The notes under the pieces: generated by a model
Told to the model about the DNA's origin: nothing
What the model saw: the letters and a program-made list of their open reading frames with translations, nothing else
Database searches by the model: none
Program-made: the position numbers and the translations under genes
Shown here: positions 5,787-60,188 of the stretch, piece after piece
How the letters are laid out: each line of letters opens with the position of its first letter
How positions within the stretch are numbered: position 1 is the first letter of the stretch
Origin: Heloderma charlesbogerti
Lineage: Eukaryota > Chordata > Lepidosauria > Squamata > Helodermatidae
Reading direction: 5' to 3'
DNA: 64,000 nt
Assembly: GCA_026122225.1 (NCBI GenBank)
Contig: JANEZZ010000983.1
Location: forward strand, 2,170,001 to 2,234,000

Positions 5787-7511
5787 CTAAAATGCCTGGG
5801 AAAATAAAAAGGTCTTCACCTGGCACCGAAAGGAATACAATGCTGGTGCCAGGCGAACCTCACTGGGGAGCTCATTCCACAGCCAGGGTGCCACAGCAGA
5901 AAAGGCCCTCCTCCTAGTAGCCACCCACCTCACTTCCTTTGGCAGGGGCTCACAGAGAAGGGCCGCTGACGATGATCTTAAGGTCCGGGCAGGCACATAT
6001 GGGAGGAGGCGATCCTTCAGATAACCTGGCCCCAAGCCATTAAGGGCTTTAAATGTTAATACCAGCACTTTGAATCAGGCCCGGAAATGGACTGGCAGCC
6101 AGTGCAGCTGGAAAAGTACTGGCGTAATATGAGCTCACTGGCCAGTCCCTGTTAACAATCTTGCTGCCCTATTTTGGACCAGCTGAAGTTTCCGGACCGT
6201 TTTCAAAGGCAGCCCCACGTATAACGCATTGCAGTAATCCAGATGAGAAGTTATCAGAGCATGGATAACTGTAGCTAGGCTATCTCTGTCCAGATAAAGG
6301 CATAGTTGGTATACCAGCCTAAGCTGATAAAAAGTGCTCCATGCCACTAAGTTCACCTGTGCCTCAAGTGACAGTTCCGGATCCAAGAGCACCCCCAAAC
6401 TACAAATGTGATCCTTTAGGGGGAGTGCAATGCCCTCCAGAACAGGTTGAATATCACCTAGCCTGTAGGGGTGCACGAAAGTCCCTTACCTGTCCTCGAA
6501 GCTTTTCGCGGTGGGGGGAAGGCGCTTCGCTGCTCCCCCCGCGAAGTTCAGGCCGGGGGAGGAGGCTTCCCGCCTCGCCTGGCCAAAATTCAGGCCAGGG
6601 GGGAGGCTTCCCGCCTCGCCCGGCCGAAATTCAGGCCGGGGAGGAGGCGCCTCGCCTCGCCCGGCCGCGAACTCAAAAGTTAAAAACAAAAACACCCCCG
6701 TGATAGGCTACGTGACGATTAACATAGCCTATCACGGCTAGATCTGCAAAGTCAGCCGTGATAGGCTACGTTAATCGTCACGTAGCCTATCACGGGGGCG
6801 TTTTTTTTTTTCTTTTCTTGGAATGGCGGCGGCGGCAGCTGGTCGAAAGACCGGCTGCCGCTCCTGCCCCGGATGAAGACCTGCCGAACCGCCGGCCGGA
6901 CCCCCTGCCGGGAGGGACATTCGCCAAAGGTAAGTCCCATCCCGGGGGGGTGCGGGGGGCGAGGGGGGCAGAGAATTTCTCCCTGAAACTTGTTCGGGGG
7001 GCTGAACACGTTGGCGCTTGGCCCCCTGAAGTTTCAGGGAGAAATTCTCCGCCAACCCTACTAGCTGGGCAGACGATCCACCCACTAACAGTACCTCCGT
7101 CTTGTCTGGATTGAGTTTCAGTTTATTGGCCCTCATCCAATCCATTACTGTGCCCAGGCACTGATTCAGAACAGCCACTGCCTCACCTGGGTTTGATGAG
7201 AAAGAGAGGTAGATCTGGGTGTCATCCACATATTGATGGCACCTCAGCCCACACCTCCGGATAACCTCCCCCAGCGGTTTCATGTAGATGTTAAACAGCA
7301 TAGGGGATAAAATAGAGCCCTGTGGAACCCCATGGCACAAGTGCCATGGCACAGAGCAATAATCCCCCAGCACCACCTTCTGGAATCGGCCATCCAAGTA
7401 GGAGCGGAACCACTGCAGTGCAGTGCCTCCAACTCCCAACCCAGACAACCTATCCAGAAGGATACCATGGTCAATGGTATCGAAAGCCGCTGAGAGGTCC
7501 AGAAGAATCAA
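5787..7511 (-). pseudogene. L2 reverse transcriptase remnant
   Basis: Three open stretches (7511-6771, 6476-6135, 6068-5787) together cover the palm, thumb and C-terminal regions of an L2-type reverse transcriptase. The catalytic box reads YVDD. The first open frame runs on into the inserted transposon and loses homology near 7065. The second resumes on the far side of the insert, and a frameshift near 6100 separates it from the third. There is no intact start and no endonuclease domain. The protein would have primed reverse transcription of LINE RNA at a nicked chromosomal target. Confidence 0.85.
6466..7060 (+). mobile_element. Palindromic hAT-type element, copy A (in L2)
   Basis: It starts TAGGGGTGCACGAAAGT (type I end) and ends GGCGGAGAATT-inverted AACCCTA (type II end). 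Flanking octamers are CTAGCCTG and CTAGCTGG, six of eight matching, and the interrupted L2 polymerase resumes on either side. Two quasi-palindromic boxes lie at 6699-6736 and 6757-6794. Their centres are GTGACGATTAAC and its reverse complement, so the pair also forms a larger inverted repeat. A GGTAAGT motif is at 6929-6935. Three degenerate CCCGCCTCGCC-type repeats lie at 6550-6660. No transposase is encoded. Confidence 0.88.
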
Positions 7512-7606
7512 CAGGGTCGCACCCCCCTGTCCCTCTCCCAGCAGAGGTCATTCCACAGGGCGACCAAGGCAGTTTCTGTTCCAAAACCAAGCCTGAAGCC
7601 ATATGT

Positions 7607-8101
7607 ACATATAATCACAACTTAAAATCACATTGGGTATTATCATAACTGGTTAATATCACTCCCATTTTATCCAGATTAATCAATTGCCAGTTTCTCT
7701 TCATGTCTGTTCCTATCTTAGCCAATTATTAAATGCAAAAACTGTAAAAATCCACATCTAGATTCAATGACAAACTTCCCACTTGCTTCAAATAAGCCAA
7801 GATTGTTCTATATGGTATAATTACTGGGGCGGGGAGAGCGGTAAATTGAAAAGGGTTTTTTAGTAGAACTCTGTATATGTTATGCTTACCAGTGTCAGGT
7901 GTGTAAAATACATGTAAGCAAGTTAAAGAACATTACAGAAGTGGGGAGACATTCTCCTGATAAGGTGTGCTTTTATCTTTTAGAGAAAATATGTGATTGA
8001 GAGGATGTGAACTGGACCTGTCCACCTCTGTGTAAGTTTTTAATAGAGCCAAGCTGAAATGGAAGCACTTTTCAAAAACATTTTCACCCCTGTGCAAAAG
8101 T
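7607..8101. other. No gene recognised
   Basis: AT-rich DNA between two antisense L2 pieces, possibly the original host sequence. No coding or repeat signal that I can name. Confidence 0.45.
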
Positions 8102-8432: not shown

Positions 8433-8568
8433 TAGTAGGAAGAACATATCCTGGAATCGAATTGCCATGGTCTGTGGCTAGGCTCAGAGACAATGAAAGA
8501 GACAGCCTTTGAAGAAGTCTCTCGATGCCATTGTGCTGATGCTTGGGGGCTTGTGCAAAGTAGGCCTA

Positions 8569-8735: not shown

Positions 8736-9127
8736 AGCACTGCCACAGTAGCTGGGATGGGGGGAGGAAGAGATGGAAGTGTGGCTCCCTTCTCCTCCTC
8801 ATTCTCCTCCCAGCTACCATGACAGCATCAGCAGGAGGACCATGAGAGGGAAGCCCCTCTTGTTGTTGTTCTCCTGCTCTGCCGGTGCCTGTCATCTTGT
8901 GGAAACAGCCCGTTTACAGGCGCCACTTCCGCAACTTTACATTTGCCAAAAAACACGAGTCACCCACTGTATTGCCAAAAAACAGGAGTCACTATTGTAT
9001 TGCAAACTGCATAAAAATGGAGACTTGCTGGAAGTTTCAGATGGCTGCCAGGCACTCGTGATGGGTCTGGGTAAGTTGCAAGGGGGGCGTATGCAGCTTG
9101 GTGAGGGGTTTGCACACTCACTGAGCA

Positions 9128-9135
9128 CATCCTGG
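9128..9135. repeat. Left target-site duplication of copy B
   Basis: The octamer CATCCTGG here is repeated exactly at 10015-10022, just outside the two ends of the element. An exact 8-bp duplication supports a hAT-type transposase. Confidence 0.9.
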
Positions 9136-10014
9136 TAGGGATATACGAAAGTGACTTACCTTTTCGCGGATTCTGTTCATGGGGGGGAGGCGTTCCGTCC
9201 CTCCCCCCGGAATCCTCGACAGGGGGGGAGGCGATCTGGTCCTCCCCCCTGGAATCCTCGACGGCTGGCTCTGCTGCATGGCGGTGCTGCGGAGCAGCCA
9301 GCCAGGCCAGGACTGTCCGCACTGAATTTCCGGCCATGGTGGCTGCTGGGTTAAAAAAACAAAACAAAAAACGGCATACGCAAATGGCAGCTGCTATGGC
9401 CGCCGCCATTCGCATTCCTTATTTTTCGCCATCTTAGTCTACGTAAATATTTACATAGACTATTATGGCAAAAATAAAGGGGAACGCAAATAGCGTAGTG
9501 GGCGCTATTTGCATCCCTTTTTGATTTGCCGTTTTAGCCTACGTAAATATTTACGTAGGCAAACAGTGAATCAAAAAGGGATGCAAATAGCACCCACTAC
9601 ACTATTTGTGTTCCCCTTTATTTTCACTGTAATAGTCTATGTAAATATTTACGTAGACTAAGACGGCGAAAAATAAGGAACGCGAATGGCGGCGGCCGTA
9701 GCCACCACCATTTGCGTACGCGTTTTTTTTTTTAACTGGGATGTGATAGGCTACATAAGTCTTTACGTAGCCTATCACGTCTCTGTAAAAAAAAAAAACC
9801 CGACAAGACTGCAAATGGCAACGGTGGCAGCCAGTCGGAAGACCAGCCGCCGGAGCCGCCGCCACCCGGAACATCCGCCCCAGGTAAGTCTCGTCCCTGG
9901 GGGGATCCACAGGGGGTGCGGGGGGGCAGGCCATTCCACCACAGATTTCGGGGGGCTGAATGCACTGGCATTCGGCCTCACCAAGATCCGTGGCGGAATT
10001 CTCTGACATCCCTA
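9136..10014 (+). mobile_element. Palindromic hAT-type element, copy B (reference copy)
   Basis: The element runs from TAGGGATATACGAAAGT (type I) to the type II end CTGACATCCCTA and is 879 bp. The flanking octamer CATCCTGG is perfect. Order from the left: type I end with ACTTACC (9154-9160); a C/G-rich spacer with repeated GGAATCCTCGAC; the long hairpin core 9373-9724; an extra palindrome box at 9745-9780; GGTAAGT at 9883-9889; then the type II subterminal hairpin 9926-10000, whose tip is GAATGCACTGGCATTC. There is no transposase frame; short open frames through it follow from stop-poor palindromes. It matches the outer element at 53949-56570 in length once the nested copies there are removed (about 878 bp). 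Confidence 0.92.
9373..9724. repeat. 350-bp hierarchical palindrome (core of copy B)
   Basis: A single long inverted repeat centred at 9548/9549. The left arm starts GCATACGCAAATGGC and the right arm ends GCCATTTGCGTACGC in inverted form, with about 175 bp per arm. The exact centre is the palindrome ACGTAAATATTTACGT. Each arm carries its own palindromes: TACGTAAATATTTACATA near 9440-9460 and ATGTAAATATTTACGTA near 9639-9655, plus AACGCAAATAGC/GCTATTTGC and CAAATGGC/GCCATT pairs. The structure is therefore nested at two scales. Confidence 0.9.
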
Positions 10015-12141: not shown

Positions 12142-12149
12142 GAACAAAT

Positions 12150-12816
12150 TAGGGATGTCAGAGAATTCTGTCACAGACTCCCCTCGAAGTCTGTGGCGGA
12201 ACGGCCTCCCCCCCCCCGCCATCCCAGGGAATCCCCCTGGGATGATGGTGGATGCAGTGGCGGCAGTGGCTCTGGCTGCTGCCGGGCTGCTGTGGCCGCA
12301 AATGGCTGCTGTCGTAGCGGCCGCCAATTGCATCCCTACGCTTGCCCCTGATAAGCTACGTATATATTTACGTAGCCTATCATGGCTAAAGCAGGGACAC
12401 AAATGGCTATGTACATTAGGCTACATACAATATTTGATAGGCTACATACAATATTTACGTAGCCTATCACGGCTAAAGCGGGGATGCAAATGGCATAGGG
12501 GATGCCATTTGCATCCCTGCTTTAGCTGTGATAGGCTACATAAATATTTACGTAGCGTATCACAGGCTAGCGTAGGGATGCAAATGGCGTCCCCTACGCA
12601 GGATGTCATTTGCGTCCGCAGCAGCGTGGCAGCGGGTGGAGGCCCTGCTGCGGATCGGCCCGGCCAGTGGCTCTGCAGACTGGCTGCGGAGCAGAGCCAG
12701 CTGGGCAGGATTCTGGGGGGGAGGAATGGCTCGCCTCCCCCCTCGTCGAGGATTCATTCCTCCCCCCATCTGTGGAACCCAGCGGAGCCAGGTAAGTGGG
12801 GTTTTGTACACACCTA
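12150..12816 (-). mobile_element. Palindromic hAT-type element, copy C
   Basis: From the type II end TAGGGATGTCAGAGAATTC to a worn type I end TTTTGTACACACCTA, 667 bp. The octamer GAACAAAT is exact on both sides (12142-12149 and 12817-12824). Palindrome boxes of the GATAGGCTACGTA type lie near 12350-12390 and 12525-12562. In the middle (12415-12475) a partial duplication gives ACATACAATATTTGATAGG next to another box. GGTAAGT is at 12791-12797. A 248-codon open frame passes through but encodes only repeats of DRLRKYLRSLS from the palindromes. Confidence 0.9.
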
Positions 12817-12824
12817 GAACAAAT

Positions 12825-13690
12825 TATAAAATGCTATATCAAACATTGTTCTTGGAAAAAGGGCAGGAATACGATAATGCTACAGGCTGGGCCAGCCCTA
12901 CCATTAGGCTGAGTGCGTTGATCACCTCAGGGAATAGATGCTGGGTGGCAGCCTTCCAGTTATTCCTCATGGACTCTGGCTGTTCCCCTCTGTATGAGGA
13001 TAGAGCTGTGTATACCACACAACCTGCCCCCTAAAAAACTAGCCTGCTGACTTAGGCATGGTGGACAGCTCTTTCTCATCACCACTGTTGAAGTGAGAGT
13101 CACCTGCCAGTCCTGTCAGCTTCTGTACATGAACAGGGGATAGAGCACTATCTTGTCTTTCACCTCAGGCAGGAAAATGTCTTGGCTACAGGTACAAAAA
13201 TTTGATTGGAATACACTGAAAAAGGATCAGTAGCGAAAAGAAAAACTAATGTTCTCACTGGACAAAAGATTTAGGCTGCAATCCTCATCCTAGGGATGGA
13301 TGAACTCCCTGATGCCCAACTTTATTGGGTGCTCGCCGAGCCACTGCTGCTGCCCACCTCTGCTTGCAGCACTGCACAAGTTTCATCGCAGACTAGCATG
13401 TGCCCAATGAAGCCATGGGGCCACCAGTCCTCCCTAGCGAGCCACCCCTGTGCACAACAATAGCAGTTCAGGCACTTCTGGGTAGATAACGTTGCGTAAT
13501 TGATGGATGTAAAGGGGCCATCTATGCAACATTACCTACCGTAAAGCACCCAAGCTGCCATTGTTGCACACAATGGTGATTCGCTAGGGAGGACGGGCAG
13601 CTGCAGGGTACTCACCAAGCTGCAGGGTGCTTGCTGAGAGGTTCTGTGAGTGCCCTGTGGTTCAATGAGCGGAATCCAGGGCATGGAGTC
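12825..13690. other. No gene recognised; possible worn MITE
   Basis: Between 13270 and 13690 the sequence has GGCTGCAATCCTCATCC near its left side and paired segments about CATTGTTGCACACAATGG, suggesting an old palindromic MITE of the CAATCC class. I could not place its ends. Confidence 0.3.
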
Positions 13691-13697
13691 GATTGGA

Positions 13698-13722
13698 CTA
13701 CACACACACACACACACACACA
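13698..13722. repeat. (AC)n microsatellite
   Basis: About twelve CA units in a row. Confidence 0.95.
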
Positions 13723-13744
13723 CAGAGACTCTCACAACATCCCT

Positions 13745-13930
13745 ACCTCATCCTTCTGAGTAGACATGTATATGACTGCACTGTTAGTCTGTAACCTTAT
13801 CCATTTACCTCAGAGTAAGCCTTATTGAACATGGTAGGGTTGTAAGGCTACAATCCTATGCAACTTATACTTATATGTCATCCCCGTTGAACTCAATGGG
13901 ACTTACGTCTAAGGGAATATGCATAAATTG
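13745..13930. repeat. CAATCCTATGCAT family repeats, two partial copies
   Basis: GAGTAGACATGTATATGACTG and CAATCCTATGCAACTTATAC bracket GTTGAACTCAATGGGACTTA, the same parts as the repeat at 2692. They are two adjoining partial copies in opposite orientations. Confidence 0.55.
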
Positions 13931-19536: not shown

Positions 19537-19984
19537 TAGGGAGGTATGAGAAATTCATTTCAGTTCATTTTTGATCAGGATTTTACCCAGCTGGACCAAA
19601 CACAGACTCACATGCAATCTGTGGTCGAAGTCTGTACATTTCCAAGCTTGCAATATGATTTGGGGACCAAAAGTGCATACACTTCAAAATGAGCACTTTT
19701 CAAAAATGTGCACAATTATGCTTTAATCAATGGGAGAATCATAGAATAGTAGGGTTGGAAGGGGCCTACAAGGCCATTGAGTCCAACCCCGAATTCATAC
19801 ATTTCAAAGAGGTGCACAATTGGTGCAGACATTTGGAAGAATATGCATGGAAATATGCTTGGATTTTCATGCAAAATGAAAAAAACAAAGCTTGCTATCT
19901 GAGATGGACTCAAGTCAGAATGAGCTTCAGGGTGGAATTCGGAGAATGTCAGCGAGTTCAAGTTTTGCTGATTCGCACATCCTA
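19537..19984. mobile_element. hAT-type MITE, TAGGGATGTATGAGAAATT family, in a SINE
   Basis: Starts TAGGGAGGTATGAGAAATTC and ends CTGATTCGCACATCCTA. Flanking octamers CTTTGGGC and CGTTGGGT match at six of eight, and the SINE resumes on each side. Its sister is at 43274-43697. A 56-bp CR1-derived piece sits inside at 19735-19790. Confidence 0.75.
19735..19790 (-). mobile_element. CR1 LINE 3' end fragment, antisense
   Basis: ATCATAGAATAGTAGGGTTG and GGCCATTGAGTCCAACCCC are the reverse of the CR1 3' end seen at 42190-42271. The sister MITE at 43274 lacks this piece, so it is an insertion. Confidence 0.8.
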
Positions 19985-20995: not shown

Positions 20996-21525
20996 TAGGG
21001 ATATATGAAAGTCACTTACCTTTTCGCAGGAGTGATTCGCGATGGGGGGGAAGTGCTCCACCCCTCCCCCCAAAATCCTAACCCGGCCAGCTCCACTCCA
21101 CGGCAACTCTGAGGAGCCGCTGGCCAGGGGCATTCGCAGGTGTCTGGAGCCTGCGGATGCAAATGGCAGTGGCTACGGCGGCCGCCATTTGCGTTCATGT
21201 TTTTGGCTGTGATAGGCTACATAAATATTTACGTAGCCTATCACGGCCTCCGCAGGGACACAAGTGGCATCCCTCTGTTAGCCATGATAGGCTACGTAAG
21301 TATTTACGTAGCCTATCATGGCCTACATGGGGAAGCGAATGGCGGCCACAGATGCGGCCGCTATTCACAAAGCAGCGCAAATGGCACCAGGTAAGTGGTC
21401 CGTTTCGTGTGCCTTTCGCGGAGTGGTGGGGCGGGGGGCTTTGTTCCGCCACAGATTTCGGGGGGCCGAATGCACTGGCATTCAGCTTCACTGAGATCTG
21501 TGGCAGAAATTCTCTGACATCCTTA
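20996..21525 (+). mobile_element. Palindromic hAT-type element, copy D
   Basis: Type I end TAGGGATATATGAAAGT, type II end CTGACATCCTTA, 530 bp, perfect octamer ATGAAAAG. Two palindrome boxes lie near 21209-21244 and 21285-21320. ACTTACC is at 21014-21020 and GGTAAGT at 21390-21396. The type II subterminal hairpin is 21447-21512. It is the same subfamily as the element at 57926-58559 and shorter than B, with less of the hairpin core. Confidence 0.92.
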
Positions 21526-25799: not shown

Positions 25800-26217
25800 T
25801 AGGGATGTACGAACTGTGTAAAATCTGCTCCGTCTGTGTTTTGCAAATTGTCAGGCACCTTTTGTTCTGTCATCCACCCATGGACGGATGTGAATATTTT
25901 TTTCATCATGTGGAAAAATATGGAAATAGTTGTATACATATTTACGTAGGTATTTGCATAAGTATTTACATAATTTACCTCAGTATGTAACATTTAGTAT
26001 ATTGTCCCGAATTCCATTCTATGTTTCCTTAGCAGAAACTTACATATTTTTCTACAGAGTTATATGCGTAAATTTCGGGAAAATTAAAAAAAAAATAATC
26101 TGAAAGTCCACGGACTCCGCACAGCCTGAGGGGGGGTGTTCCACAGTAGATTCCGCAGGTTGGATTGTTAGAAATCCAAGCTCATTTTAATCCATCTCTA
26201 ATTTCTCCAGCATCCCA
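25800..26217. mobile_element. hAT-type MITE, GACTGTGTAAAATCTGC family
   Basis: Starts TAGGGATGTACGAACTGTG and ends TTCTCCAGCATCCCA. The two flanks are GT microsatellite. Its sister at 49981-50385 has a perfect octamer duplication. The middle carries TATTTACGTAGGTATTTGCA, reminiscent of the TACGTAAATA boxes of the larger family. Confidence 0.8.
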
Positions 26218-27796: not shown

Positions 27797-27926
27797 ACTG
27801 TGAAACACTGGCCCTACAAGTGTTTTGGCCTACAACTCCCTTTGGCCCTTGCTTGCATACCCAATGGTGAAGGATCATGGGATTTGTAGGCCAAAACATC
27901 TGGAGGGCCACAAGTTGCCCACCCTG
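27797..27926. mobile_element. hAT-type palindromic MITE, CCCTCCAG family
   Basis: GGCCTACAACTCCCTTTGG pairs with CATGGGATTTGTAGGCC. ACATCTGGAGGGCCACAAG and CCCACCCTG form the right end. Left end worn. Confidence 0.65.
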
Positions 27927-29830: not shown

Positions 29831-30415
29831 TAGGGATGTCAGAGAATTCCGCCACGGATTTCGGTGAGGCCAAATGCCAGTGCATTCGGCCCCCCGAACT
29901 CCATGGCGGAACAGCCTGCCACCCCCCCCACGGATCCCCCGGGCTGTGACTTACCTGGGGCGGATTTTCTGGGCGGCGACGGCGGCTCTGGCGGCGGTGG
30001 CGGCTGGTCTTCCAACACGTTGCTGCCACCACCATTTCCACTCTTGTTAAAAATTAAAAAAAGACGTGATAGGCTACGTAAAGATTTACGTAGCCTATCA
30101 TGGCTAGGTTTAAAAAAAAAACACAACGTGATAGCCTACGTAAATCTTTACGTAGCGTATCATGGCTGGCTGGGTTTAAAAAAACAAACAAACCGCATAC
30201 GCAAATGGTGGTGGCTACGGCCGCTGCCTTTTCCGTTCCTTATTTTTTGCCGTCTTAGTCTACGTAAATATTTACGTAGATTAAGACGGCAAAAATAAGG
30301 AACGCAAATGGTGGCGGCCGTAGCCGCCACCATTTGCATACATGATTTTTGTTTTGTTTTTTTCCGAGAGCCCTCCGCAGCCAGAAATCTGGCTGCGGAC
30401 AGCTCTGGGCTGGGC
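29831..30415 (-). mobile_element. Palindromic hAT-type element, copy E (right end lost)
   Basis: Type II end TAGGGATGTCAGAGAATTCC at 29831, ACTTACC at 29949-29955, then palindrome boxes near 30067-30100, 30128-30163 and 30252-30285. The C/G-rich arm GTGGCGGCCGTAGCCGCC is near 30309. The type I end is missing: at about 30415 the sequence passes directly into BovB linker, without a TAGGG end or an octamer matching GCTCAGCC. The simplest reading is one deletion that removed both the element's right end and the BovB polymerase. Confidence 0.82.
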
Positions 30416-30501
30416 TCTAGGATGTCCGGCTCAAGTTCAGTGACCGCACTATCATGGCTATCACGGACATTAAGATTTTTCCTGGATAGTTCTTCTGTGT
30501 A

Positions 30502-32064: not shown

Positions 32065-32290
32065 AGCTTATGGCTTCCCTGCATTACGCAAGCCCCTTCA
32101 CCACAACAAGGCAGTGATCCATGAAGGGGTGTAATGGGGAGACCTGTGTTGATATCATACCTCCACCATGAAGCTCATGAAGAGACCTAGCTCACTGGCC
32201 TAGGCTGCCACACAGTTTTGTTATAAGGATGCAATGGGAGAACCCCGGAGCTCTTTTTAAGAAGGAAGGGATACAAATTTCAATAAATAC

Positions 32291-34022: not shown

Positions 34023-34431
34023 TAGGGATGTCAAAGGAATCCACGACAGAACAACATGAGTTTGGATTTTCATGAATCCAACCCACGTATTCTGCAGTGG
34101 ACCAACTTTTCCCTTGTTGGGCAGATTTGCGGCCCAGCTTTCTAACTTTCCCAAATGTTGCACAAATTCCTTTGTAGAAAAATATGCCATTAAACAACAA
34201 ATGGCCAAAAATGTACATTTCTCCCATAGGCTAAAGAGTGAAAATGCACAGTTTGGGCAAATTAGCACATTTTTGCATGTGCACATTTGCACAGCTGCAC
34301 ATGTGGCAATTTGTGGCAATGCAAATTTGTGCACATTCAGAAAAAAACAACAAGATTTCCTTTGATAGGCAGATGACAGACAATCCATAAAACACAGATG
34401 GAATGGATTTTACATGATCTGTACATGTCTA
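34023..34431. mobile_element. hAT-type MITE, reverse-oriented GACTGTGTAAAATC relative
   Basis: Starts TAGGGATGTCAAAGGAATCC and ends GATTTTACATGATCTGTACATGTCTA-like (34407-34431), the inverse of the start of the element at 49981. Octamers AGAGTAGG and AAACTAGG match at six of eight. The middle is rich in TGCACATTTTTGC-like paired words. Confidence 0.65.
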
Positions 34432-35659: not shown

Positions 35660-36453
35660 TAGGGATGTCGGAGAATTTCTCCACGAATCTCTGGGAGGCC
35701 GAATGCCAATGCATTCAGCCCCCCAAAATTGGTGAGGAAATTCTCCGCCCCCCCCGCCCCCCCCCGGGATGGGACTTACCTTGCGCGAATGTCCCTCACG
35801 GCGGCAGTTCGGTGGCGTGGCGGTGGCGGTGGCAGCCAGTCTTCTGACCGGCTGCCGCCGCCACCATTTCCAAGTAAAGTGTAAAAAAAAAAAAGTGATA
35901 GGCTACGTAAAGATTTACGTAGCCTATCACGGCTAGATTTTCAAAGTCAGCCACGATAGGCTACGTAAATCTTTACATAGCCTATCACGGCTGTCTTTGA
36001 AAAAAAAAAAAGTGCATACGCAAATGGCGGCGCCCGTATTTTCACCGTAGTCTACGTAAATCTTTACGTAGACTACCCCTGCCCAAATAAGGAATGCAAA
36101 TGGTGGCACCCATGGGCGCCGCCATTTGCGTACCTGCTTTTTTTTTTTTTACAGTCAGCCGTGATAGGCTACGTAAAGATTTACGTAGCCTATCACAGCT
36201 GACTTTGAAAATCTAGCCGTGATAGGCTATGTAAATCTTTACGTAGCTGCCTATCACATTTTTTTTTTTTTTACACTTTACTTTTTACTTTCACGGCCGG
36301 GGAGACGGGGCGCTCCCCCCCAGCCAGAATTTCAGTGGGGAGGGGTGGGGCGCTGCCGCCTCCCCACCCACCAAGAATTTTGGGGGGAGAACCGGAGCCC
36401 CTTCCCCCTGAAAAAAGCTGCGGGGCCAGGTAAGGGACTTTCGTCCATCCCTA
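35660..36453 (-). mobile_element. Palindromic hAT-type element, copy F
   Basis: Type II end TAGGGATGTCGGAGAATT, type I end GACTTTCGTCCATCCCTA, 794 bp, perfect octamer. Left-arm boxes near 35896-35930 and 35955-35990 carry ACGTAAAGATTTACGT and ACGTAAATCTTTACAT. Right-arm boxes at 36159-36196 and 36218-36258 repeat the pair. The outer arms are poly-A/poly-T rich. The centre (36020-36140) keeps one CGTAGTCTACG box and is shorter than in the 59270 copy, so it is an internal-deletion form. Confidence 0.92.
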
Positions 36454-37674: not shown

Positions 37675-38876
37675 TAGGGATGTTGGGGAATTCCGCCACA
37701 GACTCCAGTGAGGCCAGATTCTTTAGAATCTGGACCTAGGGATGGCGGAGAATTCCACCACGGATTTCAGTGAGGCCAAATGCACTGGCATTCAGCCCCC
37801 CAAAACCCGTGGCGGAACAGCCTCCCACCCCCTCCACCCTGAGGAATCCCCCCCGGGGCAAAGCTTACCTGGGGCAGATGTTTCAGCGGCAGCGGCTCCG
37901 GCAGCAGTGGCGGCAGCTGGTTTCTCAGCCGGTGGCTGCAGATGCAAATGGCGGCTGCCATAGCAGCCACCATTTGCGTCCTGCCAGGCTGCCATGATAC
38001 GTAAATACGTAAGTATTTACGTAGCCTATCACGGCAAAGGCAGCCATGCAAATGGCAGCCACTATGCCAGTTGCGTAGCTGCCTTTACCGTGATAGGCTA
38101 CATAAGTATTTATGTAGCCAATCACAGTAAAGGCAGCTACACAACTGGCATAGTGGCCGCCATTTGCGTGGCTGCCTTTGCCGTGATAGGCTATGTAAAT
38201 ACTTACGTAGCCTATCATGACAACCTGGCAGGACGCATATGGCAGCCACAGCAGCCGACTGTGGCCAGAATTCTGGCTGTGGTAGGGCCTGGCCAGCAGT
38301 TCCACAGAGCCGCCGTGGAGCAGAGCTGGCCCAGGGAGGATTCCAGAGGGAGGGACAGAGCACCTCCACCCCCACCGCGAATCAAAGCTGCGAAAAGGTA
38401 AGTGACTTTTGTACATCCCTATCTGGACCCCCAGAGTCCGTGGCAGAATGGACTACCCCCCCGCCACCCCCCAAAATCGCCCTGCAACAGACCTACCTGG
38501 TGGTGGCGGCAGATGCAGCGGCAGTGGCAGCTCCGGGTTGTCTTCCAGTCCCTGCCGGCTGCTGCAGCCACAAATGGAGGCTGTCGTATAGGCCACCATT
38601 TGCGTCTATGCCTTAGGCTGTGATACGCTATGTAAGTATTTGCGCCCCTGCTCTTTGCCGTGATAGGCTACGTAAATACTTAAGTAGCCTATCATGGCCT
38701 AAGGCACAGACGCAAATGGCGGCCAGTGTAGTGGCCACCATTTGTGTCCACAGCACGGCAGCAGCAGCCGGAAGCCGCGGAGCTGCCGGCCAGGATTCCA
38801 GCGGGGGGGGACAGATCGCCTCCCCCCCCAGTGGATGCCCCGGACTGGAACCAGGTAAGTGATCCGCTCACCCCTA
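37675..38876 (-). mobile_element. Palindromic hAT-type element, copy H (outer of a nest)
   Basis: Type II end TAGGGATGTTGGGGAATTCC, type I-like end GTAAGTGATCCGCTCACCCCTA. The octamer ATCTAACT is perfect (37667-37674 and 38877-38884). After 62 bp it is interrupted by copy G and its duplication, then resumes CCCCAGAGTCCGTGGC at 38428. Removing the insert rejoins the type II subterminal hairpin. Boxes near 38617-38645 and 38659-38697; GGTAAGT at 38854-38860. Own length is about 509 bp. Confidence 0.92.
37737..38421 (-). mobile_element. Palindromic hAT-type element, copy G (nested in H)
   Basis: Type II end TAGGGATGGCGGAGAATTCC, type I end GACTTTTGTACATCCCTA, 685 bp. The octamer TCTGGACC is perfect (37729-37736 and 38422-38429). 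Three palindrome boxes (near 37996-38034, 38089-38128, 38181-38220) alternate with GCAGCCATGCAAATGGC-like arms. GCTTACC is at 37863-37869 and GGTAAGT at 38395-38401. It is younger than H. Confidence 0.93.
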
Positions 38877-39079: not shown

Positions 39080-39965
39080 TAGGGATGCTGGAGAAATTTG
39101 AGACAGACTAAAATGAGCTCAGATTTCTAAGAATCCGACCTGCAGGAATCCACTGTGGAGTAGGAATGTGAGAACTCACCCCTGTCTAGGTTCTTTGGAT
39201 GCCTGCCCAGCCCCTGCTCGTGCTCACTGGTCCCCAGACCATGCTCAAGCCCCTCCCATGCTCAGCGAGCAGCCCACACTCACCCCAGTGGCCTCATCGA
39301 GCTCCGCAGTCGCGATTTTTTTTTTAAAAAAATGCGATCGCAAAAATGTGCATATTTTTGTATGCGAACATGTGCATTTTTGCATGTGTGAATGTGCTCA
39401 TTCACAAGAATGTGCATTTTCACACATCACAAATATGCACATTTTTGCAGTCACCATTTTATTTCTCAAAAAATCGCAACCACGAAGCTTGATGAGGCTG
39501 CTGGGGTGAGTGCAGGCCATGCGCTGAGCCTGGGCAGGGGTCCAGCAGGGGCAGGGCCTCAGCAAGCGTGGCTTGGGGGTGCAGGCAGGGGTGGTTCCAC
39601 CATATTCCCAGACTGAATTGGGCACCTGCACCATCCCTACTGTGGAGCAACCCCCTCAGGCTGTGCAGAGTCCATGTACTTTCAGATTTTTTAAAAAACT
39701 TTCCCATATTTTATGCATACTTATTCATAAATATGCAAGCTTCTGCTCAAGAGAAGTGGAAGAGAATGGGGGACAATACACTAAATGTTACGTAGTAAGG
39801 TAAATTATGTAAAATGTTATGAAACTCCTTATGTAATTATTTGCATTTTTTTCTGCCTGATGAAAAAAACACACAATTCGCATCCATGAGCAAATGACAG
39901 AACAAAAGGTGCCTGACAATCCACAGAACAGATGGAGAAGATTTTACACAGTCCATACATTCCTA
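39080..39965. mobile_element. hAT-type MITE, GACTGTGTAAAATC family, reverse, with nested copy
   Basis: TAGGGATGCTGGAGAAATTT at the left is the inverse of the 50371-50385 end. GATTTTACACAGTCCATAC at the right is the inverse of its start. Octamers GTCTCCCC and GTCTACTC match at six of eight. Without the insert its own length is about 399 bp, close to the 405 bp of the copy at 49981. Confidence 0.78.
39161..39639. mobile_element. hAT-type MITE nested in the previous one
   Basis: TAGGAATGTGAGAACTCACC on the left, CACCTGCACCATCCCTA on the right, 479 bp. The octamer CTGTGGAG is perfect (39153-39160 and 39640-39647). The interior pairs CAGTCGCGATTTTTT with AAAAAATCGCAACCACG and is rich in TGTGCATTTTTGCA words. 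Confidence 0.85.
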
Positions 39966-43273: not shown

Positions 43274-43697
43274 TAGGGATGTATGAGAAATTGGTTTCAG
43301 TTCATTTTTGATCAGGATTTACCTAGTTCACACCTTTTGGATCAAACATGGACTCGGATGCGATCTGTGGTGAAGTCCATACATTTCTGAGCACTGAAAA
43401 TTTGCATTCGATGGCATGCGCGTGTTTGAAAACTGTGCATGAAAAACTGCATACTAACTTCTGAAAAAATGTGCACAAATATGGTTTAATCAATGGGAGA
43501 AGAATGCAAACATTTCAAACATGTGCACAATTGATGTGCACATTGGGGAAAATATGCACACAAATACTCATGGATGTTCATGCAAAAAGAAAAAAGCAAC
43601 ACTCACGATCTATATATGGACTGGAGTCAGAATGAGCTGCAAAATGGAATTTGGAGATCTTCAGCAAGCTCGAGTTTTGCTGATTCATACATCCCTA
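43274..43697. mobile_element. hAT-type MITE, TAGGGATGTATGAGAAATT family
   Basis: Starts TAGGGATGTATGAGAAATTG and ends GCTGATTCATACATCCCTA. It matches the element at 19537 along its length, without that element's CR1 piece. Flanking octamers match at only five of eight, so the duplication is uncertain. Interior is rich in TGTGCACAATT-like words. Confidence 0.7.
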
Positions 43698-47085: not shown

Positions 47086-47087
47086 GA

Positions 47088-48018: not shown

Positions 48019-49300
48019 TCATCCCCGCTCCCATGAGGCCCCCCTCGTGCTCCTCCCCTGGGGCCCCGGGTTTGTGGGGGTACAGCTGGTGGAAGTGCCT
48101 GAGCAGCAATGGAGCATACACATTTTCCACGGGTTCCCAGGATCACTCATCAGGTCCGTACCCCTTCCAGTCCACCAGATATTGCAAGTGGCCATGAGAA
48201 AGGCGGGAGTCCAGAATCTCTGAGACCTCAAACTCCTCCTCCCCCTCCACCAGCACTGGTGGTGGGGGGGGGAGCCGACTGAGCAATGAGGGTCACCAAA
48301 AACCAGGGGGGACAGCAAGGACCGATGAAAAACAGGATGGATCTTCATGGAGGGGGGGAAAGCCAGGCAAAAAGCAACGGGGTTAATCTGGGCCATAATC
48401 TGGAAAGGCCCCATGCGGCAAGGCGTGAGCTTCCTTGCGGGCGAGTGAGAGGGGAGGTATTGGGTGGACAACCAAACCCAGTCCCCCGGTTGCAGAGACG
48501 GACCCGGCTGGTGCCGCCGGTCTGCAGAGGCCTTGTAGGCTGTCTTGGCTTGCTCGAAGGAGTCCCGTAAGAGGTGGTATACCACTTGCAACTCCTCTAA
48601 AAAGTCCTGGGCCGCTGTCACCGAAGAGGGAGCTAGGGTGGACGGGAAGGCCTTGGGGTGGTAACCAAAATCGGCAAAAAATGGAGTTTGGTGGGTGGAA
48701 GCATGGCAGGCATTGTTATAAGCAAATTCTGTGAGAGGCAGCAAGGAAAACCAGTCATCCTGCTGGTAATTGACATAACAGCACAGATATTGCTCCAGAG
48801 TCTCATTGGTGCGCTCGGTCTGACTGTCCGTCTGTGGATGGTGGGCGGAGGAAAGATGGAGCGTCACATGGAGCAACGCAAGTAGCTCCCTCCAGAAATG
48901 GGCAGTGAATTGGGCCCCCCTATCCGAAATGAGACCCTCGGGCCATCCGTGGAGGCGGAAAACATGCACCACGAACACCTCTGCCATCTCCCTGGCTGTG
49001 GCAACCCAGAGCAAGGGATGAAATGGGCCATCTTAGAAAACAAATCCACCACCACCAGAATAGTGGTCTTACCAAGTGAGCGAGGCAAGTCAGTGATGAA
49101 GTCAAGGGAGAGCAGTTTCCAAGGTCCTGAGTGGGTAGGTAGGGGGTGAAGCAAGCCTGTGGGCTTGCCTGAGGGGGCCTTCGCCCGCTGGCAGGTTGGG
49201 CAGGAGGCGACATAGGACTTGACGTCCTGACACACACGAGGCCACCAAAAATCCCTCATCACTCCATGCAGGGTCTTGGCGATGCCAAAATGCCCAGCTG
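48019..49300 (-). pseudogene. Gypsy integrase (pol C-terminal part)
   Basis: Two overlapping open frames. The upstream one (49262-48864) begins in the zinc-binding region (MMRDFWWPRV, SCPTCQRAK) and reaches the first catalytic aspartate in LDFITDLP. A frameshift near 48990 leads into the second (49014-48019, 331 aa). There LISDRGAQF gives the second aspartate at residue 31 and SQTERTNETLEQYL the glutamate at residue 67, a D-35-E spacing as in retroviral-type integrases. A GDWVWL segment and a frameshifted chromodomain (near 48150-48250) follow. Function: joining element DNA to the chromosome. The frameshifts and the lack of polymerase make it inactive. Confidence 0.88.
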
Positions 49301-49427
49301 TGGGGGAGGAATCTCCATCAGCTGTTGGCCCTGGGAAAAAGGAGCGCGCTCCTCTCCCAGGAGCAACTGCTCTTCCTCAGAATCAGAACTACTCTGGGAT
49401 TCTATGGGCTCAGTGTCCACCCTGACA
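49300..49427 (-). repeat. 5' LTR remnant
   Basis: Only the first roughly 128 bp of the LTR in minus orientation remain. It matches the 3' LTR at 47890-48018 closely and runs straight into integrase sequence at its inner edge. Confidence 0.8.
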
Positions 49428-49980: not shown

Positions 49981-50385
49981 TAGGGATGTATGGACTGTGT
50001 AAAATCTGCTCTGCCTGTGTTTCACATATTGTCAGATGCCTTTTTTTCCATCATCTGCCCACAGACAGAGGCAAATATATTTTTTTCATCATGCGGAAAG
50101 TCACGCAAAGAATTACGTAAGTATTTACGTATTTACATAATTTGCCTTAGTATGTAACATTTAGCATATTGTCCCCGATTCCATTCAACATTTCCTCAGC
50201 AGAAACATACGTGTTTCCCTACGAATTTATATGCGTAAAATTCGGGAAAGTAAAAAAAAAAAATCATCCGGAAGTCCACAGACTCCATGAGGCCTGAAGG
50301 GGTCGCTCCACAGCAGATTCTGCAGGTTGGATTCTCAGAAATCCAAGGTCATTTTAGTCCATCTCGGATTTCTCCAGCATCTCTA
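49981..50385. mobile_element. hAT-type MITE, GACTGTGTAAAATCTGC family (reference copy)
   Basis: Starts TAGGGATGTATGGACTGTG and ends CTCCAGCATCTCTA, 405 bp, with the octamer GATGTAGC exact on both sides (49973-49980, 50386-50393). The middle has ATTACGTAAGTATTTACGTA, a partial version of the TACGTAAATA box of the larger family. No coding content. Confidence 0.9.
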
Positions 50386-53948: not shown

Positions 53949-54012
53949 TAGGGATGTACGAAAAGGACTTACCTTTCGCGGATTATGTTGATGGGGGGGG
54001 AGGCATTCCGTC

Positions 54013-54932
54013 TAGGGATGTACGAAAGTGACTTACCTTTCCGCGGATTATGCTGATGCTGGGGGTGAGGCGTTCTGTCCCTCCCCCCTGGAATCCTGGC
54101 CGGGGGGAGGCACTCCATACCTCCCCCCCAGAATCCTGGTTGGCCGGCGCCACTCTGCAAAGATTCTGCGGAGCTGCCAGCCGGCTCCGCCAGTGGCCGG
54201 ACATCCAGCCGCTGGCTAGCAAGGACGCAAATGGTGGCAGCCGTAGCCGCCGCCGTTTGCGTCCCTGCAGTCAGCCGAGATAGGCTACATAAATGTTTAC
54301 GTAGCCTATCACGGCTGAGTTAAAAACAAAAACAAAAACACACACGTATGCAAACGACGGCGGCCATGGCCGTCGCCATTTGCGTTCTTTATTTTGGCAC
54401 GTCTTAGTCTACGTAAACATTTACGTAGACTAAGACGGCAAAAATAAGGGGAACGCAAATAGCTTAGCGTCTACGCTATTTGCGTTCCCCTTATTTTCGC
54501 TGTCTTAGTCTATGTAAATGTTAACGTAGACTAAGATGTGCCAAAAAAGGAACGCAAATGGCGGCGGCCATAGCCACCTCCATTTGCGTACGCACGTTTT
54601 TTGTTTTTAAGTCAGCCGTGATAGGCTACGTAAAGATTTACGTAGCCTATCACGGTGTTCTTTAAAAATCTAGCCGTGATAGGCTACGTAAATCTTTACG
54701 TAGCCTATCACGTTTTTGTGTGTGTGTGTGTTTTTTTAACTGGAAATGGCAGAGGCGGCGGCCGGTCAGAAGACCGGCCGCCGCCACCACTGACTCCAGG
54801 AAGATCCACCCCAGGTAAGTCTTGTCCCGGGTGGGCGGTGGGGGCAGACAGTTCCCCCACCAATTTCGGGGGGCCAAATGCGCTGGCATTCGGCCTCCCT
54901 GAGATCCATGGCGGAATTCTCTGACATCCCTA
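54013..54932 (+). mobile_element. Palindromic hAT-type element, copy J (nested in I)
   Basis: Type I end TAGGGATGTACGAAAGTG, type II end CTGACATCCCTA, 920 bp, octamer ATTCCGTC exact (54005-54012, 54933-54940). The hairpin core is centred near 54469 at AGCGTCTACGCT. Boxes at about 54418 (GTAAACATTTAC) and 54519 (GTAAATGTTAAC) mirror one another. Further boxes lie at about 54295, 54637 and 54695. ACTTACC at 54031-54037, GGTAAGT at 54814-54820. Confidence 0.94.
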
Positions 54933-55085
54933 ATTCCGTCCCTCCCCCCGGAATCCTCGACTGGGGGGGAGGCGATCCATTCCTCCCCCCCAGAATCCTC
55001 GATGGCTGGCTGTGCTCCACGGCAGCTCCGCGGAGCAGCCGGCCAGGCCCAGCCAGCCCAGAGCCGTCCGCAGCTGGATTTCCAG

Positions 55086-55893
55086 TAGGGATGTCAGAGA
55101 ATTTCGCCACGAATCTCAGGGAGGCCGAATGCCAGCGCATTTGGCCCCCCAAAATTGGTGGTGAAATGGTCTGCCCCCCTCGCCCCCCCCGGGACGGGAC
55201 TTACCTTGGGCAAATCTTTGTGGCAGCGGCAGTGTGGCGGCGGTGCGGCAGCGGCGGCGGCTGGTCTTCCGTCCGGCTGCTGCTGCCGCCATTTCCAGAA
55301 AAAGATTTACGTAGCCTATCAAGGCTAGATTTTTTAAAAATACCATCATAGGCTACGTAAATGTTTACATAGCCTATCACAGCTGAGTTAAAAAAAAAAA
55401 AAGCGCGTACGCAAATGGCGGCGCCCATGGGCGCTGCCATTTGCGTTCCTTATTTTAGCACATCTAGTCTATGTAAACATTTACGTAGACTATGGAGAAA
55501 ATAAGGGGAACGCAAATAGCGTAGCGTCTACGCTATTTGTGTTCCCCTTATTTTCACTGTAGTCTACGTAAATGTTTACGTAGACTAGACGTGCCAAAAT
55601 AAGGAAGACAAATGGCGGCGCCCATGGACGCCGCCATTTGTGTACGTGTGTGTGGTTTTTTTGCTCAGCCGTGATAGGCTACGTAAACGTTTATGTAGCC
55701 TATCACAGCTGACTCCAGGGATGCAAGCGGCGGCGGCTATGGCCGCTGCCATTTGCGGACCCGGCCGGCCAGGATTCAGGGGGGGGACGGAGCGCCTCCC
55801 CCCCAGCCAGAATTTCAGGGGGAGGGACGGAGCACCTCCCCCCCACCTCGAATCAAATTTCATGTAAAGGTAAGTGACTTTCGTACATCCCTC
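55086..55893 (-). mobile_element. Palindromic hAT-type element, copy K (nested in I)
   Basis: Type II end TAGGGATGTCAGAGAATTTC, type I end GACTTTCGTACATCCCTC, 808 bp. Octamers ATTTCCAG and ATTTATGG match at only five of eight. However, sequence of copy I stops at the left edge and resumes at the right edge, as comparison with copy B shows. The hairpin core is centred near 55525 (ATAGCGTAGCGTCTACGC). ACTTACC at 55199-55205, GGTAAGT at 55869-55875. Confidence 0.9.
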
Positions 55894-56578
55894 ATTTATG
55901 GCCGCGGAGGGCTCTGGGGGGGGGGGGAACCCGGTACGCAAATGGCAGCGGCTACAGCCACTGCCATTTGTGTTCCTTATTTTTCACCGTCCGAATCTAC
56001 GTAAATATTTACGTAGACTATGATGGCAAAAATAAAGGGGAACGCAATTAGCGCCCATTACGCTATTTGCGTTCCCCTTTATTTTCGCCGTCATAAGCTA
56101 TGTAAATATTTACGTAGATTCAGATGGCAAAAACTAAGGAACGCAATGGCAGCGGCTGTAGCCGCCACCATTTGCATATGCGGTTTTGTTTTGTTTTTAA
56201 CCCACCCAGCCATGATCGGCTACGTAAAGATTTACGTAGCTTATCATGTTGTGTGTTTTTTTAAAAAAAACTAGCCATGATAGGCTACGTAAATCTTTAC
56301 GTAGCCTATCACGTCTTTTTTTTTTTTTTTTTACAAGACTGGAAATGGCGGTGGCGGCAGCCGGTTGGAAGACCAGCCGCCTCAGGCGCCGCCACCGGAG
56401 CCGCTGCCGGAGCCGCCACCGCCCGGAAGATCCGCCCCAGGTAAGTCTCATCCCAGGGGGGATCCATGGGGGTGCAGGGGGGCAGGCCGTTCTGCCATGG
56501 AGTTCGGGGGCCTGAATGCACTGGCATTCGGCCTCACCGAGATCCGTGGCGGAATTCTCTGCCGTCCCTACCTACCAC

Positions 56579-57181: not shown

Positions 57182-57189
57182 CTCTAAAT

Positions 57190-57493: not shown

Positions 57494-57501
57494 CTCTAAA
57501 T

Positions 57502-57717: not shown

Positions 57718-58934
57718 TGTCAGGATTGGGTACAAACTCCCTGCAGGGACTGTGGAAAAATATTCAGAGTCAGGAGATGAACAGGGCAAGGGGGCAGGGC
57801 AGGGCAGGAAATTCCTCAAGGAGCTCAAAGAGCTCAAGGAGACAGAGACAGGGAAGAATCTTCCCAAGGGCAGGCTAATCAGCTGGATCAAAGCCCAAAC
57901 CTAACTACTACTGTGGGAATCCAGCTAGGGATATGCGAAAGTCATTTACCTTTTCGAAGGGGGTGATTTGCGGTGGGGGGCAGGTGCTCTGCACCTCCCC
58001 CCGAAATCCTAACCCAGCCAGCTCCACTCTGCAGCAACTCCGCGGAGCCGCTGGCCAGGTGCATTCGCAGGCATCTGGAGCCTGTGGACGCAAATGGCGG
58101 CAGCTATGGCGACCGTCATTTGAGTTCCTGTTTTTTTGCTGTGATAGGCTACATAAATATTTATGTAGCCTATCACGGCAAAAAAACAGGGGCGCAAATG
58201 GCGGCAGCTACAGCGGCCGCCATTTGCCTTCCCTTTTATTGCCGTGATAGGCTACGTAAATATTTACGTAGCCTATCATGGCCTCCGCAGGGATGCAAAG
58301 GGCATCCCTGCATGAGCTGTGATAGGCTACGTAAGTATTTACGTAGCCTATCATGGCAAAAATGGGGAAGCGAATTGCGGCAGCAGACGCAGCTGCCATT
58401 CACAAAGCAGCGTGAACAGCACCAGGTAAGTGCTCCATTTCACGTGCATTTCGCGGGGTGGTGGGGCGGGGGGCTTCATTCCGCCATGGATTTTGTGGGG
58501 CTGAATGCACTGGCATTCGGCCTCACTGAGATCTGTGGCGGAATTCTCTAACATCCCTAAATTCACCGAGGGCGAGGTGAAGGAAGTGAGCATGGCAAAT
58601 GCATGGATCAAACGTAGATTCAAGAGGGAGGAGCAGCATAAAGAAGTAAGGCAGTCTACCAGGTTGGCTCATCACCAGAGGTATCTAGGGAAAGATCCTC
58701 CCTGAAGGTGGGACTGAGAAAGCCTTTCAGGTTCTGTGCTGTAGAGTAGCTTCAGAAATGCAACAATTTTCTCTTCTACTGTGGTGCATCCCTAACTACT
58801 TAATGTTGTGCCAGCTTAACCAGGGATCTTGACTTTAGAACCCAGTCAGGACTGTAAATCTGAATTGCTATGGATGGTTTGCTTCACATAATAAAGTCTA
58901 TTTGCTTGGAGATCGACTTCTTTGTTTGACTACA
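57718..58934 (+). mobile_element. Probable solo LTR interrupted by copy L
   Basis: Starts TGTCAGGATTGGGTACAAAC and ends TTTGTTTGACTACA, with AATAAAG at 58892-58898 and TACA directly repeated outside (57714-57717, 58935-58938). Removing copy L leaves about 575 bp. The first part is open and acidic (EYSESGDEQGKG), as in the other LTRs of this window. The short duplication makes this a moderate call. Confidence 0.45.
57926..58559 (+). mobile_element. Palindromic hAT-type element, copy L
   Basis: Type I end TAGGGATATGCGAAAGT, type II end TCTAACATCCCTA, 634 bp. Octamers AATCCAGC and AATTCACC match at six of eight. Three boxes (near 58139-58177, 58243-58281, 58317-58356) alternate with GCAAATGGCGGC arms. 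GGTAAGT at 58425-58431; the left motif is worn to ATTTACC. Same subfamily as copy D. Confidence 0.9.
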
Positions 58935-59269
58935 TACACGCTGGAAGGGCTTGTGACTTGACACTATGTCAACGGCCACTCAGTAGAGACCCTGGTGGGT
59001 GGCTGAAATGCCGCAATCACTGGGGCATTAGATCAGGTGGCTCGAAATGCCCTCTCCCCCTGAACAGGGCTCGGACTGCACCATGGTTCAATCCGCGGTT
59101 ACAAGCTCTGAAACAGGAGGTGAGACGGCTAGAGTGCCGGTGGCGGAAGTCTCACTCCAAAGACGATCAGACACGGGCTAGAGCTGTATCTTCAGGCTAT
59201 TACGTGGCAGTGAAGGCAGCAAAAAAGGAATATTATGCTGCCTCTATCGCATCTGCTGAGTGCTATCCC

Positions 59270-60188
59270 TAGGGATGGCCGTGAATTTCTCCACGAATCT
59301 TGGGGAGGCTGAATGCCAACGCATTTGGCGCCCCGAAATTGTTGGTGAAATTTTCCACCACCACCCCGCCCCCCCCTCCCGGGATGGGACTTACCTCATG
59401 CGAATGTCCCTCTCAGCGGCAGGTCCCGGCGGCATTTTGGCGGCGTTTCGGCGGGGGTAGGGGCGGCGGCCGGTCTTCCAACCGGCTGCCGCTGCCGCCA
59501 TTACAAAAAAAAGTTTTAAAAAAAGAACACCCATGATAGGCTACGTAACGATTAATGTAGCCTATCACGGCTAGATTTCCAAAGTCAGCCATGACAGGCT
59601 ACGTTAATCGTTACGTAGCCTATCACGGCTGACTTTGAAAAAAAAAAAGCGTGTACGCAAATGGCGGCGCCCATGGGCGCCGCCATTTCTGTTTCTTATT
59701 TGGTCCCGGGTAGTCTACGTAAAGATTTAAGTAGACTACGGCGAAAATAAGGGCAATGCTATTTGCGTTGCCCTTATTTTCGCCGTAGTCTACGTAAATC
59801 TTTACGTAGACTACCCAGGACCAAATAAGGAACGCAAATGGCGGCACCCATGGGCGCCGCCATTTGCATACGCGCTTTTTTTCTTTTTTTCAAAGTCACC
59901 CGTGATAGGCTACGTAATGATTTACGTAGCCTATCATGGCTGACTTTGGAAATCTAGCCATGATAGGCTATGTTAATCGTTACGTAGCCTATCACGGGTG
60001 TGTTTTTTTCCCATTCACTTTTTATTTCGCGGCCAGGGAGATGGGGCGCTTCTCCCCGGCCTGAATTTCGGCCGGGCGAGGTGGGGCACCTCCCCCCCCA
60101 GCCTGAACTTTGGGGGGAGAACCAAAGCACCTCCCCCCCACCGCGAAGCAAGCTGCAGGACCAGGTAAGTGACTTTCGTACATCACTA
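59270..60188 (-). mobile_element. Palindromic hAT-type element, copy M (in L2)
   Basis: Type II end TAGGGATGGCCGTGAATTTC, type I end GACTTTCGTACATCACTA, 919 bp. Octamers GCTATCCC and GCTGTCCC match at seven of eight. ACTTACC at 59389-59395, GGTAAGT at 60164-60170. The core 59517-60010 is the clearest two-level palindrome of the window. The inserted L2 frame resumes beyond it. Confidence 0.93.
59517..60010. repeat. 490-bp hierarchical palindrome (core of copy M)
   Basis: One inverted repeat centred near 59763. Six palindrome boxes are centred at about 59550, 59609, 59726, 59798, 59919 and 59978, symmetric about the middle. The outermost pair have asymmetric centres that are reverse complements (GTAACGATTAAT and GTTAATCGTTAC); the middle pair are AAAGATTTA and TAAATCTTT. 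Between them lie CAAATGGCGGCGCCCATGGG arms and a central GGGCAATGC/GTTGCCC stem. Confidence 0.9.

Follow-up and report, generated by a model that had tools for sequence, protein, structure and literature searches.

The DNA considered here, referred to as the window, is a stretch of 64,000 nucleotides from Heloderma charlesbogerti (contig JANEZZ010000983.1, positions 2,170,001 to 2,234,000), and it contains 13 copies (c01 to c13, Table 1) of a family of short, palindrome-rich transposable elements. A sequence-only reading of the window had described this family as mobile in the manner of hAT elements, with 13 starts, shared TAGGG..CCCTA ends, eight perfect 8-bp duplications and a share of about 15% of the window. 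Inspection of end profiles and flanks confirmed all 13 starts, the eight duplications are exact, and the family footprint is 9,432 bp, or 14.7%, with the missing end of c05 taken at an approximate position. The shared ends stand for 12 of the 13 copies, which retain both, and fall for c05, which has lost one (end A, below); most ends read TAGGG, in agreement with the hAT terminal motif YARNG, whereas c03, c04, c11 and c13 each have a decayed version at their second end. Two features were overlooked in that reading, namely that the copies are asymmetric and that their ends carry outward-facing splice donors.

The end designated A has the sequence TAGGGATGTACGAAAGTCACTTACCT and the end designated B the sequence TAGGGATGTCAGAGAATTCCGCC. 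These diverge past the first ~9 bases, and end-to-end symmetry is absent. Profiles of A and B were built from the termini of the window copies themselves; the 13 sequences in the B profile include one A end (that of c07, at 38876), and the profile was used as such in the end searches. Six of the 12 complete copies lie on the plus strand and six on the minus strand. Beyond the eight exact duplications, that of c13 matches at seven of eight positions, those of c01 and c12 at six, and that of c11 at five following a one-base shift made by eye. A scan for TAGGGATGT-like ends recovered 11 exact 8-bp duplications (eight from this family and three from other families), compared with a chance expectation of 0.01 for random TA positions. 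The terminus of c06 is at 36453, the site of the second GGGAGAAC. Copies are nested within copies in three cases, with c08 inside c07 and both c10 and c11 inside c09. Insertion into the hairpin loops of other copies was considered and is not claimed from three cases only. In Pfam searches of 30 of the 45 window frames of at least 120 amino acids, there was no transposase and no match inside the 13 copies. The element sequence was absent from the viral contig and genome contig collections scanned, and blastn gave no match of c13 to plasmids or of c10 to phages.

The abundance of the family has been probed by searching the same genome (2.30 Gb). The exact 18-mer core occurs 31,410 times, compared with 4 for a reversed-pattern control, and an exact 27-mer from the A end occurs 19,206 times, compared with 0 for the control (19,296 with a wildcard at one flank base). 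If the window is typical, with 4 exact cores per 13 copies, a rough guess is ~100,000 copies. Forty stretches were sampled around listed core matches on contig C1, a choice that leans to younger copies due to the exact core. A or B ends were found in 40 of 40 stretches, and the tandem satellite arrangement that had been named as a refutation was not seen. A-B pairs whose duplications differ by 0-1 mismatch were found at 33 of the 40 loci, yielding 37 elements (27 exact, 10 with one mismatch), of which 35 are 492-1005 bp long and two are longer (1660 and 1764 bp). The other seven loci gave none, as four lack a pair and L005, L028 and L043 have only pairings with 6 or 7 mismatches; 15 pairings with at least 4 mismatches were discarded, many of which join ends of different copies. 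The hAT target consensus is nTnnnnAn. In the 45 targets (37 genome, 8 window), T is found at position 2 in 21 and A at position 7 in 20, and the two occur together in nine, compared with ~3.4 expected from the base composition of the window. By the criteria tested (short, non-coding, high copy number), this is a family of miniature inverted-repeat transposable elements (MITEs).

Read outward, the A ends of the window copies contain (A/C)AG/GTAAGT, exact or nearly so, 22-25 nt from the terminus, and the same donor is located 118-135 nt from the B terminus in 12 of 13 copies. This motif, AGGTAAGT, found in outward orientation at both ends of the small copies, is the consensus 5' splice donor. 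When ranked by pairing to the tail sequence of U1 RNA, 23 of the 24 window end donors fall within the top 34 of 6,372 GT sites. Among the window copies, the donor is also the least varied 8-mer of each end, ranking 1/122 at A and 1/195 at B, ahead of the terminus, with a mismatch of 3.1% (A) and 2.1% (B) compared with a mean of ~22%. In the genome sample the terminus ranks first and the donor third (3/122 and 3.7% at A; 3/182 and 5.7% at B). Strong donors, with U1 pairing of -10 or lower, face outward in 31/37 A ends and 32/37 B ends, and at both ends in 29/37, while none faces inward at either end (0/37 each); shuffled sequence reaches -10 in 0.5% (A) and 5.3% (B). With the cut at -8.5, outward sites are found at 33 A ends and 33 B ends of the 37, and inward sites at 0 and 12, respectively. 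A strong donor is missing from both ends at L018, L031 and L037, from three more A ends and from two more B ends. The motif is retained across subfamilies while its spacing and neighboring bases differ, and in the genome sample its distance from the B terminus spans 78 to 174 nt. Because the copies share ancestry, these donor counts are not independent events; more independent are the presence of the motif at two unrelated ends, its retention across subfamilies, and the large elements described below.

A search for the hAT dimerisation domain, in which 150 of 871 candidates were scored, returned 30 loci. An A or B end is located near 16 of these 30 transposase loci (L069 and L070 look like duplicates). 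At three loci read letter by letter, the nearby ends belong to small copies in or beside transposase genes. Two copies of an 879-codon frame (stop to stop) were read outward, and in both the homology runs from a B end to an A end. These two large elements, X and Y, are 9,387 and 10,069 bp long, are 99% identical over the main block, and have exact 8-bp duplications (CACAACAC and ACTGAAAT). The B-end profile matches X and Y with E values of 1.4e-4 and 3.3e-4; on visual comparison, the B ends of X and Y are close to those of the small copies only over the first ~16 bases, and the A terminus of X is decayed to TTGGG. The 879-codon frame of X contains PF05699 (hAT dimerisation, E=1.3e-16) and PF02892 (BED, E=6.8e-5), and Y has the same frame. 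A second frame, shared by X and Y and antisense to the transposase, is Myb/SANT-like, with 117 amino acids and a match to PF13837 (Myb_DNA-bind_4, E=2.6e-9). The A ends of X and Y have a donor 24 nt from the terminus that is best or second of ~1,000 GT sites by U1 pairing, and a weak GTGAGC is located 115 nt from B, near the donor distance of the small copies. Thus the search for a hAT transposase flanked by the same ends, suggested in the sequence-only reading, found two elements with exact duplications, and the proposed hAT-type mobility is supported by the 8-bp duplications together with these same-ended elements and their hAT transposase frame. Judged from their sequences, X and Y are the likely autonomous partner of the small copies, which are presumably non-autonomous hAT transposons moved by the transposase of the large relative.

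No end was seen in the stretch near a third transposase gene (L085, 81% similar). At L068 (700-1560), a 525-bp copy with B at both ends is centred in an inverted duplication in which ~165 bp of transposase-gene DNA flank it on either side, an arrangement suggestive of a copied hairpin. Of the proteins scored, those most similar to the transposase are five squamate ZBED4/6-like hAT proteins with 36-42% identity, none of them near-identical. In contrast to the transposase, some of these relatives carry additional domains: P0001, P0003 and P0004, from lizards and geckos, contain PF02023 and two also contain PF01352 (SCAN and KRAB, respectively), an arrangement suggestive of hAT transposases fused to regulatory domains.

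The nested symmetry at two scales that was described for the copies is real, with palindrome modules located inside larger mirrors, as in c13. Palindromes account for 26% of element sequence but only 0.7% in 18 control stretches, and shuffled sequence contains none. Exact matches to the core TACGTAAATATTTACGTA number just four in the window; related modules (up to 5 mismatches) total 46, with two to six per copy, and modules containing GCAAATGGCGGC and its complement are also present. Part of the nesting is automatic, since palindromes lined up with mirrored spacers between them form a palindrome on the larger scale. A single dominant mirror centre is found in some copies (for c13 at 427, with arms of ~247 bp), and the mirror is internal, with the termini outside it. 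Folding predictions with 12 shuffles per copy indicate that every copy is far more stable than shuffled sequence (z -13 to -53), and c13 folds as one hairpin of ~420 nt. Arm-to-arm conversion was considered and is not claimed, as the two arms of a copy do not clearly resemble each other more than they resemble arms of other copies.

Comparison with the large elements offers an origin for this mirror. Beyond the end bases, only the A-side tail of the large element matches the small copies (390 bp in X, 550 bp in Y). The tail consists of ~40-bp palindromes arranged in a row, and the self-palindromes in the tails of X and Y measure only 39-141 bp. In c13, positions 12-423 correspond to 9376-9004 of X and positions 426-659 to 8999-9232, such that the tail is present in opposite directions. 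Six of the 13 copies were compared with X for tail direction: c06 and c10 show both directions as c13 does, c01 does so partly, c12 has one 150-bp match in addition to its A end and single modules, and c03 has single modules only. When the whole window is compared, matches of X inside the copies are confined to 8999-9385. The tail present twice and inverted gives the large-scale symmetry, while its palindromic modules give the small-scale symmetry. As the modules are palindromic, short matches are directionless and the case rests on the long matches. From these alignments, the nested mirror appears to be a hAT subterminal palindrome row reused in inverted orientation in the small derivatives. 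Outside the 13 copies, three short stretches of the window (42132-42269, 19740-19790 and 27812-27918) match internal parts of the large hAT elements and may be old remnants or shared repeats.

The elements also differ from the rest of the window in CpG content. The CpG observed/expected ratio is 0.85 in the elements compared with 0.21 in the rest of the window. In the large elements it is 1.1-1.2 in the last 390 bp (the A-side tail) compared with 0.33-0.36 in the middle, and the first 400 bp at B are likewise CpG-rich.

It is somewhat more likely than not that these hAT-derived small elements have promoter-like ends that are able to splice outward into host sequence. Because the A-side tail is CpG-rich and located upstream of the Myb-like frame, it is taken to be promoter-like, and the small copies would retain two such halves, back to back. 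Transcripts exiting at either end could then be joined, through the donor, to a splice acceptor in host DNA, and such outward splicing may have aided the spread of active lineages, for example through copies kept in open chromatin. A further, more tentative suggestion is that the small elements function as natural two-way promoter/splice-donor traps that have spread tens of thousands of times. If so, chimeric transcripts could begin, in either direction, wherever an insertion lies within or close to a gene, and the family would constitute a genome-wide supply of alternative first exons. Should the donors work, they would provide tens of thousands of two-way starts of spliced transcripts and a source of lineage-specific regulation. 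The family also illustrates in detail one route by which nested palindromes can form, and the likely two-gene partner opens it to direct experiment.

Several observations weigh against outward splicing from promoter-like ends. Strong outward donors are absent from the 400 nt next to B in X and Y, where the best outward sites score -8.1 (394 nt from B) and -7.3 (99 nt). With the -8.5 cut, the 12 of 37 B ends with an inward site compare with 19% of shuffled B ends. Conservation from copy to copy reflects source lineages and relatedness in addition to selection. Reading frames from an ATG to the donor are not conserved among the copies, and a coding first exon was consequently dropped. Acceptor-like sites are inconsistent (26 outward, 8 inward, under a loose rule that gives the outward direction more length), and a reading as internal exons is not pressed, as these sites are patchy. 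The CpG sites decay among copies, with 57-62% shared at 82-89% identity and 26-27% at 75-77%, which fails to prove lasting protection from methylation. Finally, at the settings used, the large elements contain nothing that aligns with ~260 bp in the outer B part of c13, and the proposed origin accounts for this copy only in part.

The donor-like motif may have a different function. The inverted orientation of AGGTAAGT at the two ends is common for subterminal transposase binding sites, and with its strong conservation at both ends and its presence at A of the large elements it would suit such a site, the likeness to a splice donor being coincidental; this is considered rather doubtful. X and Y possess both ends and exact duplications, yet only weak sites close to B, and movement of the large elements without AGGTAAGT at B weakens a role in transposase binding. 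Splice donors typically have A or C at -3, as do 23/24 window donors, and the conserved block ends at about the U1-pairing bases. The varying distance from the B terminus and the differing flanks are also contrary to a binding site, as are the D2 and D3 elements, which lack the motif near their ends, though another transposase may serve them.

Alternatively, the small copies could have inherited their donors and CpG-rich palindromes from autonomous ends without using them today. The large elements already possess the palindromes, the donor and the A-side tail, and no frame is conserved in the small copies, consistent with simple inheritance. At either end, however, the donor is conserved to about the same degree as the terminus, more so in the window and a little less so in the genome sample, and it persists where spacing and flanks differ, making inheritance alone an unlikely account. 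It has also been considered that the palindromes act as cruciforms or as long double-stranded RNA that feeds small RNAs, with the donors incidental. The folding of the copies, far beyond that of shuffled sequence and including the single hairpin of c13, is compatible with this; however, tandem palindromes fold strongly whatever their role, Rfam gave no match to the copies, and the conserved outward donors are left unexplained, so a structural role of this kind is judged improbable. The idea that a tandem satellite or chance palindromes have been mistaken for transposons may be set aside: modules do recur near-tandem inside copies, but the exact 8-bp duplications are far above chance, every sampled genome locus has element ends, and full copies are nested in copies.

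In the literature searches made, no paper contained the element sequences tried or the full set of terms for outward donors in hAT elements. The family resembles hAT MITEs in its 8-bp duplications, short TAGGG termini, absence of a transposase gene, very high copy number, and partner with BED and hAT-dimerisation domains, and differs in that the core is a mirror of palindromic modules and conserved outward donors are present at both ends. The PIF/Harbinger elements have a two-gene layout consisting of a Myb/SANT-like gene and a transposase. X and Y are similar in having a Myb/SANT-like second gene beside the transposase, whereas here the transposase is of the hAT type and the duplications are 8 bp; to our knowledge, a transposase and a Myb/SANT-like gene on opposite strands are otherwise familiar as a layout only from PIF/Harbinger. 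Foldback elements (FB, Galileo) have long inverted repeats that are built of smaller repeats and include both termini. Long inverted repeats composed of smaller repeats are also found here, whereas the mirror is internal, the termini differ and the partner is a hAT element; the inverted repeats thus do not include both termini, as those of a foldback element do. Galileo has been placed in the P superfamily (PMC4168063). Maize Ac/Ds is a hAT element for which putative splice donors, D1-D4, have been described in the 5' subterminal region of a Ds gene-trap construct (PMC2647555); the likeness lies in the presence of subterminal donors, which in the present family face outward at both ends.

Table 1. 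Copies of the family and other features, in window coordinates except for the Myb/SANT-like frame, which is given by locus
Feature	Positions	Strand	Description
c01	6466..7060	+	A left, B right; flanks CTAGCCTG/CTAGCTGG; outward donor GT 6489(-), 6930(+)
c02	9136..10014	+	duplication CATCCTGG; donors 9159(-), 9884(+); long mirror 9362-9534/9561-9733
c03	12150..12816	-	B left, A right; duplication GAACAAAT; A donor 12792(+); B donor not found
c04	20996..21525	+	duplication ATGAAAAG; donors 21019(-), 21391(+)
c05	29831..30420 (right limit approximate)	-	B profile hit at 29831, none for A in the vicinity; donor 29954(-)
c06	35660..36453	-	duplication GGGAGAAC; donors 35779(-) at B, 36430(+) at A
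c07	37675..38876	-	split by c08; duplication ATCTAACT; donors 38496(-) at B (GTAGGT), 38855(+) at A
c08	37737..38421	-	inside c07 B end; duplication TCTGGACC; donors 37868(-), 38398(+)
c09	53949..56570	+	split by c10 and c11; duplication CCTACCAC; donors 53972(-), 56441(+)
c10	54013..54932	+	inside c09 A end; duplication ATTCCGTC; donors 54036(-), 54815(+)
c11	55086..55892	-	inside c09; end profiles; decayed flanks ATTTCCAG, ATTTATGG (by eye); donors 55204(-), 55870(+)
c12	57926..58559	+	B donor 58426(+); A donor decayed to GTAAAT
c13	59270..60188	-	flanks GCTATCCC/GCTGTCCC; six palindromic modules; donors 59394(-), 60165(+)
D2, related family	49981..50385	+	duplication GATGTAGC; no donors near ends
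D4, different TAGGG family	39161..39639	+	inside 39080-39965; duplication CTGTGGAG; palindromic core
D5, TAGGG element	13291..13745		exact duplication CCTCATCC; imperfect internal inverted repeat
Myb/SANT-like frame of X and Y	L082:407-757, L084:408-761	-	start ~1,025 nt from A terminus; identity 100% and 97%

Other elements are also present in the window. D4 contains outward GGTGAGT sites at 39179(-), 39283(-) and 39506(+). Its ends are not significantly similar to A or B in three of four comparisons (the left end against B gives p ~0.04), and D4 is consequently kept apart from the family; as a single copy, it hints that the layout of donors and palindromes may recur. Additional D2 copies are located at ~25800-26217, at 39080-39965 (the copy that holds D4) and probably at 34023-34431. 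D2 is ~400 bp without the insert, and one copy contains a core-like TACGTAAGTATTTACGTA. It shares the first bases of A, and a B-like end is clear in one copy and marginal in another; the end comparison placed the right end of D2a ~17 nt short. A third TAGGG-ended pair of ~430 bp (19537-19980 and 43274-43697) is very CpG-poor. A region at 30502-32067 resembles a Bov-B long interspersed nuclear element by eye and has no Pfam match. Pfam matches were obtained for six of the 30 window frames searched, comprising four to reverse transcriptase (one under the cut-off), one to a Tf2-type SH3 domain and one to an integrase zinc-binding domain. Decayed reverse transcriptase pieces are located at 40899-41859, 60724-61962 and 6771-7547, and decayed Tf2-like and integrase domains at 48019-49376.

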